35,153 nt of DNA from Coriobacteriia bacterium (GTDB lineage Bacteria; Actinomycetota; Coriobacteriia; Coriobacteriales; Eggerthellaceae). The stretch lies in NCBI GenBank assembly GCA_030526515.1, contig JAUNCQ010000012.1, forward strand, positions 1 to 35,153. Direction: 5' to 3'. Of the stretch, positions 18,623 to 24,341 are shown piece after piece (within the stretch, counting starts at the first letter, position 1; each line of letters begins with the position of its first letter). The notes below the pieces were generated by a model. It was given only the letters and a program-made list of their open reading frames with translations, ran no database searches and had not been told where the DNA came from. The translations under genes and the position numbers were made by a program.

Positions 18623-19336
18623 ATGGAGAAGCGCAAGTTCAGCGAAGTGTTTTCCGAGCAAGTCAAGACCGTGGGACTGGGCAAGGCCCTTTCCTGGAAC
18701 CTGTATTGGGAGGCCAACCGGCCTCTGCGCTGGCTGCGCCTGAAGATGGATACCAAGCGCGACCTGCGCATCTGCGGCGTGCCGCTGGAAGGCGGCGACC
18801 TATCCCAGTTCCGTGAGTCCCACGGTGCCACCAACTCCCTGAGCACTCCTTACGGCGCACTGGAAGTGGTGTTGGGCAGCCAGAAGTTCACCGAAGATGA
18901 CGCCATCATCGACATCGGCTGCGGCCACGGTCGCGTACTCGCCTACCTGGTGGACTCCAAGTTCCCCGGCCACATTGCCGGCGTGGAGCTGAACCACGAC
19001 GTGGCCTCTTTCGCCCGCAGCTGGCTCAAGCGCTACCCCGAGGTCGAGCTCATCGAAGGCGATGCCTTCGAGCAGGACCTTTCCCGCTTCAACGTGTTCT
19101 ACCTGTGGAAGCCCATGCTTTCCGACATCTTCAAGCGCTTCGTGGTGAAGCTGGAGCAGGAAGCCGTGCGCCCGCTGACCATGTACTACGTGATGGACTT
19201 CGAAACCGCCACCTTCTTCCAGGATCGCCCCAACTGGCGCGAGATCTCCCGCATGGAGGTACATCGCGTCCATGGCATTCCCGTGTTCAGCCGCCCGCTG
19301 TGCTGCACCGTCTGGGAGTACACCCCTCAGAAATAA
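18623..19336 (+). CDS. class I SAM-dependent methyltransferase
   Basis: The ATG at 18623 follows AGGAG and gives 237 residues. Motif I is A-I-I-D-I-G-C-G-H-G-R-V (95-106), followed by I-A-G-V-E-L-N-H (acidic E after strand 2) and L-I-E-G-D-A-F-E. The N-terminal 85 residues are helical, with a basic W-L-R-L-K-M-D-T-K-R patch that may contact a membrane or nucleic acid. The layout resembles DOT1-like/protein-lysine or small-molecule methyltransferases. Substrate unknown. TTGCTC (18554-18559) and TAGCAT (18577-18582), 17 bases apart, may be its promoter. Confidence 0.82.
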   Translation: MEKRKFSEVFSEQVKTVGLGKALSWNLYWEANRPLRWLRLKMDTKRDLRICGVPLEGGDLSQFRESHGATNSLSTPYGALEVVLGSQKFTEDDAIIDIGCGHGRVLAYLVDSKFPGHIAGVELNHDVASFARSWLKRYPEVELIEGDAFEQDLSRFNVFYLWKPMLSDIFKRFVVKLEQEAVRPLTMYYVMDFETATFFQDRPNWREISRMEVHRVHGIPVFSRPLCCTVWEYTPQK

Positions 19337-19340
19337 AAGA

Positions 19341-19418
19341 AGCGCCGGCCGCTACCGTCGTGCGCCTGATTCGCTGAAAGGGGACGTGCGAATCAGGCAA
19401 CGGCAAAGGCCAGGCGCC
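19341..19418 (-). terminator. large nested hairpin, likely terminator of the small membrane protein transcript
   Basis: The inner stem is perfect over 11 bases: GCCTGATTCGC (19364-19374) with GCGAATCAGGC (19388-19398). Outside it CCGT (19355-19358) pairs with ACGG (19400-19403), then GCGCC-GGCC (19342-19350) pairs with GGCC-A-GGCGC (19408-19417). On the minus strand the structure is followed by TTCTTTTATTT, as expected of a terminator. It is much larger than other terminators here, so an additional RNA role is possible. Confidence 0.6.
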
Positions 19419-19425
19419 TAATATC

Positions 19426-19459
19426 GCGACTTCAAAGGGCCACACTCCTCGGAAGTCGC
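19426..19459. repeat. inverted repeat between methyltransferase and small membrane protein genes
   Basis: GCGACTTC (19426-19433) and GAAGTCGC (19452-19459) form perfect eight-base arms around an 18-base loop. No T-run follows in either direction except a run of A on the plus strand, so this is not a simple terminator. It lies just beyond the stop codon of the minus-strand small gene. Confidence 0.55.
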
Positions 19460-19478
19460 CAAAAAATGGAGGAGAAAT

Positions 19479-19643
19479 CTACAGAATGCCAGCCATGGGC
19501 AGTGCAGCCATGGCGATGCCGCACAGGGATGCCAGTCCGTACTGGGCACGCGGCTTACGGTCGTAGCGCTCGCGGTCCAGCAGGATGACGCCGCCCAGGG
19601 CAACGATAAGACCCACGCCGATCAGAAGAATGTTTGCAATCAT
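19479..19643 (-). CDS. 54-residue membrane protein
   Basis: ATG at 19643 has an AAGGGA-type site about nine bases upstream. The product has a first helix at residues 2-21 (I-A-N-I-L-L-I-G-V-G-L-I-V-A-L-G-G-V), a charged loop D-R-E-R-Y-D-R-K-P-R, and a second helix at 36-54. It is divergent from the CRP/FNR gene, with a regulator-type palindrome placed at -41.5 of its likely promoter. No family is recognised. A two-helix hairpin with a basic loop suggests an inner-membrane accessory protein. Confidence 0.65.
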   Translation of the reverse strand: MIANILLIGVGLIVALGGVILLDRERYDRKPRAQYGLASLCGIAMAALPMAGIL

Positions 19644-19728
19644 TGTTCGTATCCCTTCTATTCGTTGGCTTCGGGTTCCGGAATACGGTGCCTTTTGCAC
19701 CGCTGAAGCATGTTTTGCTGTTAGGGCG

Positions 19729-19734
19729 ACTATA
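19729..19734 (-). promoter_or_regulatory. -10 box for the small membrane protein gene
   Basis: Minus-strand TATAGT gives a predicted start of transcription near 19722, 79 bases before the ATG at 19643. There is no recognisable -35 box at the proper spacing, which is typical of an activator-dependent promoter. The same bases read TATACT on the plus strand (19731-19736) and could serve the divergent regulator gene. Confidence 0.5.
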
Positions 19735-19755
19735 CTGAGGGCTCAAAATGAATTA

Positions 19756-19771
19756 CGTTGTTATGACAACG
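19756..19771. promoter_or_regulatory. CRP/FNR-type palindromic site
   Basis: CGTTGT-TATG-ACAACG is a perfect dyad with the TTGT-N4-ACAA spacing known for FNR/NnrR-class regulators. Its centre (19763.5) is 41.5 bases upstream of the predicted start of the minus-strand small gene, and it lies 60 bases before the CRP/FNR regulator's own start codon. Confidence 0.6.
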
Positions 19772-19830
19772 GATTCACAACTTTTTGCAATCTTTTTTCG
19801 AGGCCCTGACAAAGCGGGAAAGAGGCGGTT

Positions 19831-20499
19831 TTGGACTACCTGTACCTGAAGAGAAGCGTGCTGTTCGAAGGGCTGACCCGCCCCGAGATCGAGGAGATGC
19901 TCCCCTGCCTTGACCCCAAGGTGAGGACCTTCAAGAAGGGCGAGGTCATCTACCGGCAGGGCTCAATCCACCGCCACCTGGGATTGATCTTGGAAGGCGA
20001 CGTGCGCATCGAGCACATCGACGCCTGGGATAACATCACCCTGCTGACCATCATGGAGCAGGGCAAGACCTTCGGCGAGGCCAACGCCGTGCTGGACGAC
20101 CCCCTAGCCGCGGACTTCATCGCCGACCACGACTGCAAGATCCTGTTTCTGAACATCAAGAAGATCATGCAGCCTTGCGCCAAGGGATGCGCGAACCATC
20201 GGCTCATAGCCAGCAACCTGACCAAGCTGCTGGCCCGCCGCAACCTGGAAATGAACCGCCGCGCGTTCATCACCGCGCCCCGCGGCATTCGCACCCGCGT
20301 CATGGGATACCTGTCCCTGGCCGGACACGCCTACGGCGCCGCCGAGTTCGACATCCCCTACAACCGCGAGCAACTGGCCCAGTACCTGGGCGTCGACCGC
20401 TCCGCTCTTTCAGCAGAGCTCAGTCGCATGGCGAAGGACGGACTGATCGAATTCAGGAAGAACCACTTCAAGCTGACGTCCCCGGACCTGCTGGACTAA
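19831..20499 (+). CDS. CRP/FNR-family transcriptional regulator
   Basis: The 222-residue protein starts at a TTG with AAAGAGG five bases upstream. Residues 10-125 are a cyclic-nucleotide-binding-type beta barrel (F-K-K-G-E-V-I-Y-R-Q-G, then L-G-L-I-L-E-G-D-V-R-I, then F-G-E-A-N-A-V). Residues 145-220 are the winged HTH with recognition helix D-R-S-A-L-S-A-E-L-S-R-M (189-200). The cAMP-contact pattern of true CRP is not evident. Four cysteines exist (26, 102, 116, 120), with C116-x3-C120 after the barrel. FNR-like iron-sulfur sensing is possible, but the usual N-terminal Cys cluster is absent. It probably controls the divergent small gene and itself. Confidence 0.9.
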   Translation: MDYLYLKRSVLFEGLTRPEIEEMLPCLDPKVRTFKKGEVIYRQGSIHRHLGLILEGDVRIEHIDAWDNITLLTIMEQGKTFGEANAVLDDPLAADFIADHDCKILFLNIKKIMQPCAKGCANHRLIASNLTKLLARRNLEMNRRAFITAPRGIRTRVMGYLSLAGHAYGAAEFDIPYNREQLAQYLGVDRSALSAELSRMAKDGLIEFRKNHFKLTSPDLLD

Positions 20500-20573: not shown

Positions 20574-21668
20574 TTAGCGACGTGAGCGCCGGTCATGGTT
20601 GGCGCTGGAGTAGAACGCGCGCTTGGCGGCACGCATGCGCTCCTCAGCTGTCTGCACCAGCTTGCTGACAGCGCCCGGCTCCACCGCCTCAGCCGCCAGC
20701 AACGACGCAACGCCCATGGACACCATGCAGCCCTTCTGGCGAAGCTCGGCATCCAGGCGCTCGGCCACCTGCTGGACCTGATCGGCGGAGCGGTCCGTGG
20801 CGAAGGCCAGGAACTCGTCGCCGCCCATGCGATAGGTGAAGTCCAGGCCGAACTCGTCCCGCATGGTTTCAGCCACCAGCTTCAAGGCGGCATCGCCCGC
20901 GGCGTGACCCTTGGAGTTGTTCAGCTCATGCAGGCCGTTCAGGTCGGCATACAGGCAGGTCAGCTGCTCGTTGCAGCGCTGGCCGAGCTCGTCGGCGCGG
21001 GTCTCGAAGTGGTTGCGGTTGCACACGCCGGTAAGCAGGTCCGTGCGGCTGATCAGCTCCAGGCGCTTGGTCTTGGCCAGCGTATCCACGCGAGCACGAC
21101 AAACCACGACCTCGATGACCACGGCAACGAAGCCGAAGGAAATCGTGTTCCACATGTCCACCTTGGCCATTTCCCACGGCTTGCACAGCTCGGTCACTAT
21201 GCACATGGCAGCGCAGGCCACTACCGTCAACAAGCCCAGGTGAAGAGGCCGATCGATGAACAGCAGCGGCGATGCGAACATGATCACGATGAACGTCAGC
21301 GCCGGCATGTCCGGATGCAGGGCGGATAGCGCCATGGATGCGCCGTACATGGCCATCAGATATATCAAGAACAGCGGATGGATGCCTTTCGACGAGCAAC
21401 GGTCCCGCAAGAATCCCGCAAGAAGACCGGCGACCAGGCTCATGATGGCGCAGGTCACGTACACCGGCTGATTGACGGCCGAAAACGTTGGCGCAACGGC
21501 GTTGACCACGCCCAGCACGCCGAAGTAGACCGCACTCAGCAGAGAAACCGCCCGCAGACTGCGCGCGTTTTCCCGCTGGATGGCGCCATCCAGCTCCCGG
21601 TACTGGTCCTTTTCCAGCCCCGCATACAACAAGGTGCGCTTAACCTGATCGGCAAATCCCGTCGACAT
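20574..21668 (-). CDS. membrane-bound diguanylate cyclase (GGDEF protein)
   Basis: The ATG at 21668, with AAAGGAGG upstream, gives 364 residues. Residues 40-190 hold about five to six hydrophobic segments with no named sensor family. Residues 205-360 are the GGDEF domain, with T-D-L-L-T-G-V-C-N-R-N at its start and an intact G-G-D-E-F at 282-286, needed to make cyclic di-GMP from GTP. The R-x-x-D inhibitory site usually five residues before the motif is absent (G-L-D-F stands there), so product inhibition through that site is unlikely. No EAL or PilZ protein is in the window. Confidence 0.93.
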   Translation of the reverse strand: MSTGFADQVKRTLLYAGLEKDQYRELDGAIQRENARSLRAVSLLSAVYFGVLGVVNAVAPTFSAVNQPVYVTCAIMSLVAGLLAGFLRDRCSSKGIHPLFLIYLMAMYGASMALSALHPDMPALTFIVIMFASPLLFIDRPLHLGLLTVVACAAMCIVTELCKPWEMAKVDMWNTISFGFVAVVIEVVVCRARVDTLAKTKRLELISRTDLLTGVCNRNHFETRADELGQRCNEQLTCLYADLNGLHELNNSKGHAAGDAALKLVAETMRDEFGLDFTYRMGGDEFLAFATDRSADQVQQVAERLDAELRQKGCMVSMGVASLLAAEAVEPGAVSKLVQTAEERMRAAKRAFYSSANHDRRSRR

Positions 21669-21797
21669 GGCGCACCTCCTTTCGCCCTCACAGCATCTCT
21701 CAGTCAGGCGTCGGGGCACAATTCGACCCGCACGCCTTCCATTGAGTGGCCATGCTACGGGATTTGTCTCAGGGTTTTTTTCGCAAACAGCGAACCG

Positions 21798-24077
21798 TTA
21801 TTTGATTGATACTTTCAAATGAATAATGCGGGCGGGCGACGCCTTGTAGTTAGCGGTTTCCCGCGCGCGAACGCGTATGGCCAGTTCGTAGGCGCCGCGC
21901 TTCATGCCCTTGTTGGCATAGAAGCCCCCGAGGGAGGTAACGCGAACGTATCGGTCGCGCGTCGTGCTGGATAGCTTCACGTAGCTGCGCTTGCTGGAAT
22001 TCCACTTGCTCAGGGACACCACCTGGAACCGACGCCCCGTGACGCTCTTCAGTCCGAAGAAGTCGTTCAGGCTGCTGATGCGCTTGGTCGTGGACAGCTT
22101 GCCCCGGTATCGGCCAGACGATGCCGCGCGGAACGTCTTCTTGCGAGTCCACCCCTTGGAGGACGAAAGCTCCTGGGACGCCTTGGCCACCGTGACGGAA
22201 AGCTTGACCAGGCTGCGGGAAAGCGGCGTGGTCACCGAGACGGTCCGAGCGCCAGCGACTTTCACGTAGTTCTGGCTAAGCGTGACGTCCTTGGACGAAA
22301 CCGCCCGCGAGCGACCATCGGTGAAGGTCACCGTGCCCGTAACCTGGAGCTTGTGGTACCGACCGTCGTAGGTGAACCGACTCTGCTTCAACTTGACCGA
22401 AAGGCTCTTCACGCCGGTGGACATGGTCTGGGCGGTGCCGCAAACCGTGCAGGTGCGCTTGCTGGTGCCGACCCGATAGGCAGTGGGATCGGCCACGCCG
22501 GTCCAAGCGGACCAGGAGTGAACGTGGGGATCGGGTCCTTTTTCGTCCCGCAGCTCAATGGCCCGCTGCACCGCGGCGGCCGCGTTGACGATTCCCGCGC
22601 TGCCGGTCGCCCCCTCATGGGAGTAGCTGGCAGTGCCCACCGGCGACGCGGTGGCACGCAGGGCCGCGATGGCATCGTCGCAGGTCAGGCCCGGATACGC
22701 GGCGAACATGAGCGCCAGCGTGCCAGTGACCACGGGCGCCGCCATGGAGGTGCCGCTCAGCGTGCCGTAGCTGCCGGCCGAGGTCTTGAGGGTCGAAAGG
22801 AGCTTTTCGCCCGGAGCACTGATGTCCTTGGCCATGTTGTAGTCGGAAAACTTCGAGTTACAGCCATCGGCGCGGACCGAGGTCACCGCCAGGCAGGACT
22901 CGTAGTCGGACGGATACATGTAGTCGGTGCGGGCCACGCCGTTGCGGCCGTTGCCGCCGGCGCACACGCACAGGATGTTGTAGTCGGCGCGGGCCTGGTC
23001 GATTGCCACGTGCATGGCGGCATCTTCCGCCAGCACCTCCTCCCGCACGCTGCCGGTGTAGTCGGACGGATACGCACCCAGGCTCAGGTTGACCAGGCGC
23101 AGGTTGCTGACCTTGCCGGTCGCCACGTAGGACTCCAGCTTGTTCAGCGCGCGGACCACCGTGGCCGTGGACGCGGCGGACCCGGAGTCGCTGAACACCT
23201 TTACCGGCAGGATCTTGGCGTTGTGGGAAACGCCGGCAATGCCCTTGCCGTTGCCCGCCCGCGCGCCGATGATGCCGCTCACGTGGGTGCCGTGGCTGTT
23301 GCTGGCCCCGTCCTGAACGAGGGAGCGAGCCAACGGCGCGTCGTTGTAGGAGTCATAGGCAAGGCTGGCCAGGACGTTTTCGGCCAGGTCCTCGTGATTC
23401 AGGTTGCAGCCGGTGTCCAGCACGGCCACGGTGACGGGCTCAGCGGCGGCATCGCCCCGAGACAGGCGCCAGGCGGCGCGGACGTTGGCCTGGTCCAGAT
23501 AGCCCTGGTTGGACAGCTCGGGATCATTGGGGGTCGCAGGGTCGGAGCCTGCGGTGGGCGAAAGGGGTGCGGGGGTTGCGGCAGTCGCGGCCGTGGGCGC
23601 GGTCGCGAGGTCGGTCCCCTCCCCCAGGTCGTCCAGCGGATAGTACAGGTAGTTGGGCTGCACGTCGGTCACGCCGGGCAGGTTCTGGGCATCCGCCATG
23701 GCCTGGGCCAGGTCGACGTCATCGGGCACGTCGACGACAGCCACTTCGCCCGCCTCTTCCACCAGGTCGAAGCCTTCGGACTGCAGCTCTTTTTCGCCCC
23801 GATTCGTAACCGTTGCCAGCAGCTGGCCGTCCACGTAGCCCACGTCAGGCTGACGGCCCTGGAGCAGCTCGGCGAAGTCTTCCGCGGCGGCATCGGCCAC
23901 GGACTCGGTCGACTCCGCGGCAGCCGCGGCCGTCAACGCAGCCGCAGACCCAGCCCCCAGCTCAGCAGCATGGGCGGTCGCGGGCGCAAGCGGACACAGC
24001 GGCACCATGGCCGCGCATACAACAACGGAAACGGCGGTCCGCGCCGCCCGGGAAATTGCGCCGCAGCTGAAACGCAC
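21798..24077 (-). CDS. secreted subtilisin-like serine protease (S8) with C-terminal cell-surface modules
   Basis: I chose the GTG at 24077, preceded by AAAGGAGG at four bases, over an ATG at 24110 that lacks a ribosome site. The result is 759 residues. A signal peptide ends near A37-H-A. Residues 68-147 look like an I9-type inhibitor propeptide. The catalytic triad is D221 (V-A-V-L-D-T-G), H262 (S-H-G-T-H-V-S-G) and S444 (G-T-S-M-A-A-P), with oxyanion N376. After residue 515 come a short H-S-W...C543-x2-C546 module like those in the protein at 33158-34996, then Lys/Ser-rich beta domains. It is probably an exported protease retained at the wall. Substrate unknown. Confidence 0.93.
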   Translation of the reverse strand: MRFSCGAISRAARTAVSVVVCAAMVPLCPLAPATAHAAELGAGSAAALTAAAAAESTESVADAAAEDFAELLQGRQPDVGYVDGQLLATVTNRGEKELQSEGFDLVEEAGEVAVVDVPDDVDLAQAMADAQNLPGVTDVQPNYLYYPLDDLGEGTDLATAPTAATAATPAPLSPTAGSDPATPNDPELSNQGYLDQANVRAAWRLSRGDAAAEPVTVAVLDTGCNLNHEDLAENVLASLAYDSYNDAPLARSLVQDGASNSHGTHVSGIIGARAGNGKGIAGVSHNAKILPVKVFSDSGSAASTATVVRALNKLESYVATGKVSNLRLVNLSLGAYPSDYTGSVREEVLAEDAAMHVAIDQARADYNILCVCAGGNGRNGVARTDYMYPSDYESCLAVTSVRADGCNSKFSDYNMAKDISAPGEKLLSTLKTSAGSYGTLSGTSMAAPVVTGTLALMFAAYPGLTCDDAIAALRATASPVGTASYSHEGATGSAGIVNAAAAVQRAIELRDEKGPDPHVHSWSAWTGVADPTAYRVGTSKRTCTVCGTAQTMSTGVKSLSVKLKQSRFTYDGRYHKLQVTGTVTFTDGRSRAVSSKDVTLSQNYVKVAGARTVSVTTPLSRSLVKLSVTVAKASQELSSSKGWTRKKTFRAASSGRYRGKLSTTKRISSLNDFFGLKSVTGRRFQVVSLSKWNSSKRSYVKLSSTTRDRYVRVTSLGGFYANKGMKRGAYELAIRVRARETANYKASPARIIHLKVSIK

Positions 24078-24209
24078 GGGGCCTCCTTTGCTCGATCGGT
24101 TGGGCTTCATGGTAGCAAAGGGGGCGCGGGGCTCGGCGGGCGCGGTCCGCAAGCAATTGCCCAACGCGCAAAAACGATAGAATGTGGGGCAACCGACCGA
24201 GGAGGCCCC

Positions 24210-24320
24210 ATGTCCAAGTACGCACGCAGCGACAACTTCTACATCCGCATCATCGTCACCGTGATCATCATCGCGGCGGCCATCTTCTTCGCCATCCAGA
24301 ACGGCGGCTTCGTGTTCTAG
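24210..24320 (+). CDS. 36-residue single-pass membrane peptide
   Basis: ATG at 24210 has GAGGAGG at a good distance. The product begins M-S-K-Y-A-R-S-D-N-F-Y-I-R, then a helix of I, V, A and F residues, and ends N-G-G-F-V-F-stop. A -10-like TAGAAT (24178-24183) lies just upstream. It is divergent from the protease gene and followed by the tRNA terminator region. No family is recognised. The charged head with a single helix is like small envelope-stress or regulatory membrane peptides. Confidence 0.6.
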   Translation: MSKYARSDNFYIRIIVTVIIIAAAIFFAIQNGGFVF

Positions 24321-24341
24321 CAAGGCACCTCCCAGCCCCAG

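Follow-up and report, generated by a model that had tools for sequence, protein, structure and literature searches.

Predicted class II operator of an HcpR-type regulator upstream of a small membrane protein gene in a Coriobacteriia bacterium

The window, a stretch of 35,153 nucleotides from a Coriobacteriia bacterium of the family Eggerthellaceae, contains a dyad between a CRP/FNR-superfamily regulator and the divergent gene of a 54-residue membrane protein. That this dyad is the predicted operator of the adjoining HcpR-type regulator is strongly supported by comparison with orthologous loci. As a whole, the best explanation, which we consider probable, is a class II activation of the divergent promoter by the HcpR-type regulator, combined with autorepression, with the small membrane protein as the present target. 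The comparison shows the operator, its spacing, the orthology of the regulator, the missing hcp gene and the coding status of the small open reading frame. To the original prediction, the analysis adds the type of the regulator, the replacement of its target and a candidate sensor site. The features of the promoter region are the following.

19756-19771, no strand assigned: operator dyad CGTTGT-TATG-ACAACG with the core GTTGT-N4-ACAAC; orthologs keep the arms but not the loop
19729-19734, minus strand: -10 hexamer TATAGT of the small-protein promoter
19722, minus strand: predicted mRNA start of the small protein, calculated from the -10 position
19731-19736, plus strand: second -10 hexamer, TATACT, which overlaps the first and reads towards the regulator (start predicted at about 19743), likewise in two relatives
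19654-19659, minus strand: Shine-Dalgarno-like AGAAGG of the small protein, read from the sequence, with similar AAGGA-type stretches in the same two relatives
19479-19643, minus strand: 54-residue protein in which two hydrophobic segments flank DRERYDRKPR, its gene served by the promoter predicted to be activated

Operator dyad and divergent promoter

The letters at 19756-19771 are CGTTGTTATGACAACG, with the dyad centre at 19763.5, and TATAGT lies on the minus strand at 19729-19734 (ACTATA on the plus strand), both as originally described. Prediction of the start at 19722 from the usual -7 spacing after the -10 hexamer bears out the earlier placement of the box centre at -41.5. A TTGACA-like -35 hexamer is absent at 16-18 bp spacing from the minus-strand -10, and no sigma-70 promoter pair was found on either strand in 19300-19900, in agreement with the earlier statement that no good -35 is present. 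With a dyad at about -41.5 of the predicted start and no functional -35, the promoter has a class II arrangement. Similar to known class II CRP/FNR promoters, the -10 is intact.

The motif TTGTN4ACAA has one exact match in the window and four in the 2.42-Mb genome. In a Markov model based on the 187-bp intergenic region, p is about 0.004 for this motif and about 0.046 for any perfect 6+4+6 dyad; on its own, the dyad is only moderately improbable. On the minus strand it also scores as a terminator-like hairpin, at chance level. We regard the dyad as more than chance because its arms and its spacing to the -10 are conserved across relatives.

The original prediction had proposed a comparison of the intergenic region in related species, which revealed that the dyad arms, the -10 and the spacing are kept and the loop has diverged. 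In genome G001 of the same genus, CGTTGTCAAAACAACG stands at an equal distance from the regulator start as in the window, with identities of 12/12 in the arms, 1/4 in the loop, 14/14 in the -10 region and 9/18 in the spacer, the spacing being unchanged. Genome G033, from another genus of the family, has CGTTGTAAATACAACG and TATAGT at the spacing of the window. In both genomes the same dyad and spacing precede the same small protein.

Ortholog loci with a good dyad, picked irrespective of the -10, numbered 27. On the divergent strand, TANNNT occurs exactly 23 bases past TTGTN4ACAA in 25 of them, compared to an expectation of 0.48 at that offset and to a maximum of six over all offsets in 5000 shuffles. 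Since the loci are related, shuffling gives no strict test, yet most of the regulators are 35-50% identical and the intergenic regions are otherwise unalike. The remaining two loci have TATACC at the -10 position. In the regulator direction, TANNNT at this offset was found in none of the 27 loci. The exact offset in 25 loci strongly supports the earlier proposal of a class II operator for the divergent promoter, and the predicted binding site is conserved in distantly related anaerobic bacteria.

Regulator, recognition helix and candidate sensor site

The features of the regulator gene are the following.

19831-20499, plus strand: CRP/FNR-superfamily regulator of HcpR type (cNMP_binding and HTH_Crp_2), TTG start
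19906-19908, plus strand: codon of Cys26, a member of the all-or-none quartet
20176-20199, plus strand: Cys116-x3-Cys120-x2-His123, the other three quartet residues, located in the loop that leads into the long C-helix
20398-20436, plus strand: recognition helix, covarying with the operator

The regulator matches PF00027 and PF13545 above cut-off. Its AF2 model has a pLDDT of 89 and finds its best structural matches among CRP/FNR proteins, with Z of about 21. Relatives of the regulator are present in many anaerobes. As read from the divergent open reading frame, the divergent gene in 30 of 41 ortholog loci is either hcp, for the hybrid cluster protein, an enzyme of nitric oxide defence, or frdX, for the ferredoxin that partners it, and the regulator is assigned to the HcpR type because the divergent gene of its orthologs is mostly one of these two. 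By this assignment, which is named after ortholog gene neighbourhoods, it is designated HcpR type by descent rather than classed as a functional HcpR; the regulator tree comprised orthologs alone. Downstream, a membrane diguanylate cyclase with a GGDEF domain (20574-21719) is convergent with the regulator and adjoins it in G001 too, and a Peptidase_S8 (Subtilase-family) protein with a long C-terminal region lies at 21798-24323.

Positions 180 and 181 of CRP have been tied to operator bases (PMC1274295). In the recognition helix RSALSAELSRMAK, Arg190 and Ser191 align by eye with Arg180 and Glu181 of CRP. Orthologs with the helix DRSAL or DRSAM mostly have GTTGT or GTTGC half-sites, and five Lachnospiraceae/Clostridia regulators with the helix ERTNM have GTGGT half-sites. 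This covariation of the arms with the recognition helix speaks for the dyad as the site of the regulator itself, and counts as one event since the ERTNM regulators form one clade. The dyad TGTGGT-N4-ACCACA was observed upstream of the regulator with an ERTNM helix at L006, L007, L008, L011 and L015, and CGTTGC-N4-GCAAC dyads at L010, L029, L046 and L047.

The residues Cys26, Cys116, Cys120 and His123 occur all together in 28 of the 41 regulators and are all missing from the remaining 13. No regulator has an incomplete set, and the pattern needs two changes on the tree of 38 regulators. Cys116 and Cys120 are placed by the AF2 model in the loop preceding the long helix. The quartet suggests a Cys3-His metal or Fe-S sensor site. 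The cluster cysteines of FNR are the N-terminal Cys20, Cys23 and Cys29 plus Cys122, whereas the window regulator has no cysteine before residue 26. In addition, FNR recognizes TTGAT-N4-ATCAA, and the half-sites TTGAT of FNR and TGTGA of CRP both differ from GTTGT here. The box had been described as having the TTGT-N4-ACAA geometry of FNR/NnrR sites; its reading as a predicted CRP/FNR-superfamily operator holds, but the assignment to FNR was rejected, as both the half-site and the cysteine pattern mismatch.

Small membrane protein and missing hcp

In the window genome and the two relatives, the small protein occupies the position of hcp under the same promoter. It has 54 residues in the window genome and 52 in G033, with two predicted helices and the charged segment DRERYDRKPR between them. 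With a dN/dS of about 0.2, the comparison shows the small open reading frame to be protein-coding and under purifying selection. No Pfam or NCBIfam family matches it. It was found divergent from the regulator in the window genome, G001 and G033, with no other convincing case among 395 genomes of the order; weak matches in other genomes fall within long frames and were regarded as chance hits. A hairpin, CGGTGCCTTTTGCACCG, lies at 19686-19702 within the 5' UTR predicted for the small protein; G001 and G033 seem to carry hairpins of different sequence at a similar place.

A search of the genome for the palindrome at -41.5, as originally suggested, recovered the 19756-19771 site and no second convincing one. 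The class II pattern matches this site with no mismatch and the same dyad in the other direction with one; further matches have at least two mismatches, with totals below those of the reversed-pattern control. A second exact GTTGTN4ACAAC, on contig 56, was rejected as a target: it lies within a coding frame of 398 residues and has no -10 at the 23-base offset. Dyads with two mismatches number 260 in the genome and were examined among those listed, and weaker additional targets are possible. The small protein is apparently the only strong target of the regulator. In genome G029, frdX adjoins the regulator, and the hcp gene located elsewhere has its own exact class II box. Further class II boxes (L146, L147 and L154) precede other genes in G029 and G011, some of them encoding membrane proteins. 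In genomes that keep hcp, the regulon is perhaps wider.

The regulator was not found together with an intact hcp in any of the three genomes: the model TIGR01703 has no match in the window genome or G033, and matches only short broken pieces in G001. The window genome is a draft of 93 contigs and 96% complete, so that part of the evidence for the absence of hcp comes from G033, which is 99% complete. In contig 122 of G001 (L093, 1-1028), frdX adjoins two short hcp pieces with a stop present and the middle missing, which may reflect hcp decay in the genus or contamination (G001 is 8% contaminated). The frdX gene is kept, unlinked to the regulator; in the window genome (contig 74), the examined stretch at frdX has no dyad at up to two mismatches. 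The regulators of the small-protein trio form one clade (96/85) within the starred set of six, and the other regulators nearest to them are hcp-linked. Although it has no outgroup root, the tree therefore speaks for a target that was lost and replaced. A change of signal may have accompanied the change of target. Among the three genomes the nitrite reductase NrfA was found in G033 only, which argues against a shared nitrite physiology.

Proposed wiring and comparison with known systems

The -10 is symmetric (AGTATACT), with TATACT in the regulator direction overlapping the divergent TATAGT, and thus places the box within the probable 5' UTR of the regulator. In 20 of the 27 loci, a plus-strand TANNNT is found at a distance of 16-24 bases from the box. 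The distance from the box to the regulator start codon ranges from 14 to 288 bases across loci; in G033, L005 and L027 it is 14 bases, which leaves no room for a promoter, so that the regulator transcript there has to start in or upstream of the box. The 14-base gaps, together with the overlapping -10s in the window, G001 and G033, argue for the earlier claim that the box lies inside the regulator transcript. In an engineered bidirectional promoter of E. coli, transcription is activated one way and blocked the other way by CRP at -40.5; with CRP at -60.5, where the block could be dissected, it is caused by polymerase competition (PMC12825309). The overlapping -10s, the box in the 5' UTR and this behaviour of CRP make activation with lowered regulator transcription the simplest model, and a wiring in which the small protein is activated and the regulator repressed is the likeliest here.

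We infer the signal, the sign of regulation, the autorepression and the function of the small protein as follows. A signal, most likely nitric oxide or a related redox stress, would charge the regulator, perhaps through the Cys3-His metal or Fe-S site. The charged dimer would bind the dyad at -41.5 and activate the -35-less divergent promoter in the class II manner. Through the shared symmetric -10, polymerase would be drawn to the divergent side, and this and the occupied 5' UTR would lower transcription of the regulator. Relatives would commonly use this wiring for hcp or frdX-hcp, and the genus of the window and one related genus would drive the 52-54-residue membrane protein instead.

The dyad might be an operator through which the divergent promoter, or transcription in both directions, is repressed by the regulator. 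Its overlap with the place of the -35 fits such a role, and many CRP/FNR proteins repress from positions overlapping the -35. However, there is no -35 here to occlude, and a steric repressor would not need the exact spacing seen in 25 of 27 loci. In addition, frdX and hcp of C. difficile are activated through HcpR, with an approximately 200-fold induction by nitric oxide that is lost in the hcpR mutant (PMC12915319). We consider repression of the divergent promoter unlikely. A role in autorepression only, with the divergent spacing as an inherited by-product, would agree with the box in the probable 5' UTR of the regulator, but it is the distance to the divergent -10 that is fixed, whereas that to the regulator start varies, and the unlinked hcp of G029 bears the same class II box; we give this role very little probability.

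Hardly more probable is a fossil site of lost hcp control beside an incidental small open reading frame. The missing hcp and the unlinked frdX left alone would suit such remnant wiring, but the arms and the -10 are perfectly kept while the spacer and the loop have diverged, and the small protein is under purifying selection and occurs in two genera. A chance palindrome or a transcription terminator is extremely unlikely: the p of about 0.046 and the chance-level hairpin score would allow it, but it is contradicted by the conserved arms, the changing loop and the fixed spacing.

A more specific proposal is possible but doubtful, namely that after the loss of hcp an HcpR-type regulator, sensing through a Cys3-His site that is possibly Fe-S, was re-tasked to a single target, the 54-residue membrane protein, which took on a function in nitrosative or redox defence. 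If true, it would represent a minimal stress circuit of one regulator and one small protein. Apart from this proposal, the locus links a small orphan membrane protein with a stress regulator of known type and so offers a direct way to study its function. It clearly exemplifies how a target can be replaced while the class II promoter is conserved, with the operator, spacing and symmetric -10 kept and the gene different. For many anaerobes, it also indicates where their HcpR-type regulators may sense metal.

Similar to C. difficile HcpR (PMC12915319) and HcpR2 (PMC1274295), the protein is a CRP/FNR regulator whose orthologs adjoin frdX or hcp, and its operator is a dyad with an N4 loop; it also shares a serine at the CRP-181 position with the HcpR2 proteins of C. 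difficile and C. thermocellum. Ser-181 HcpR2 proteins have been reported with motifs other than the HcpR2 consensus GTAAC-N4-GTTAC (PMC1274295), from which GTTGT-N4-ACAAC differs as well. Unlike HcpR systems, the window genome has no detected hcp, and the divergent gene encodes a 54-residue membrane protein. P. gingivalis HcpR senses through heme (PMC12750200), with Met68 implicated in the heme binding, whereas the group of the window regulator carries the Cys3-His set and may differ in its sensor. The derivatives of the E. coli acrA/acrR promoter with CRP (PMC12825309) resemble the present locus in a symmetric -10 usable both ways and in one-way activation by CRP at -40.5; here, however, the side that would be blocked holds the gene of the regulator itself, and many genera share the layout.
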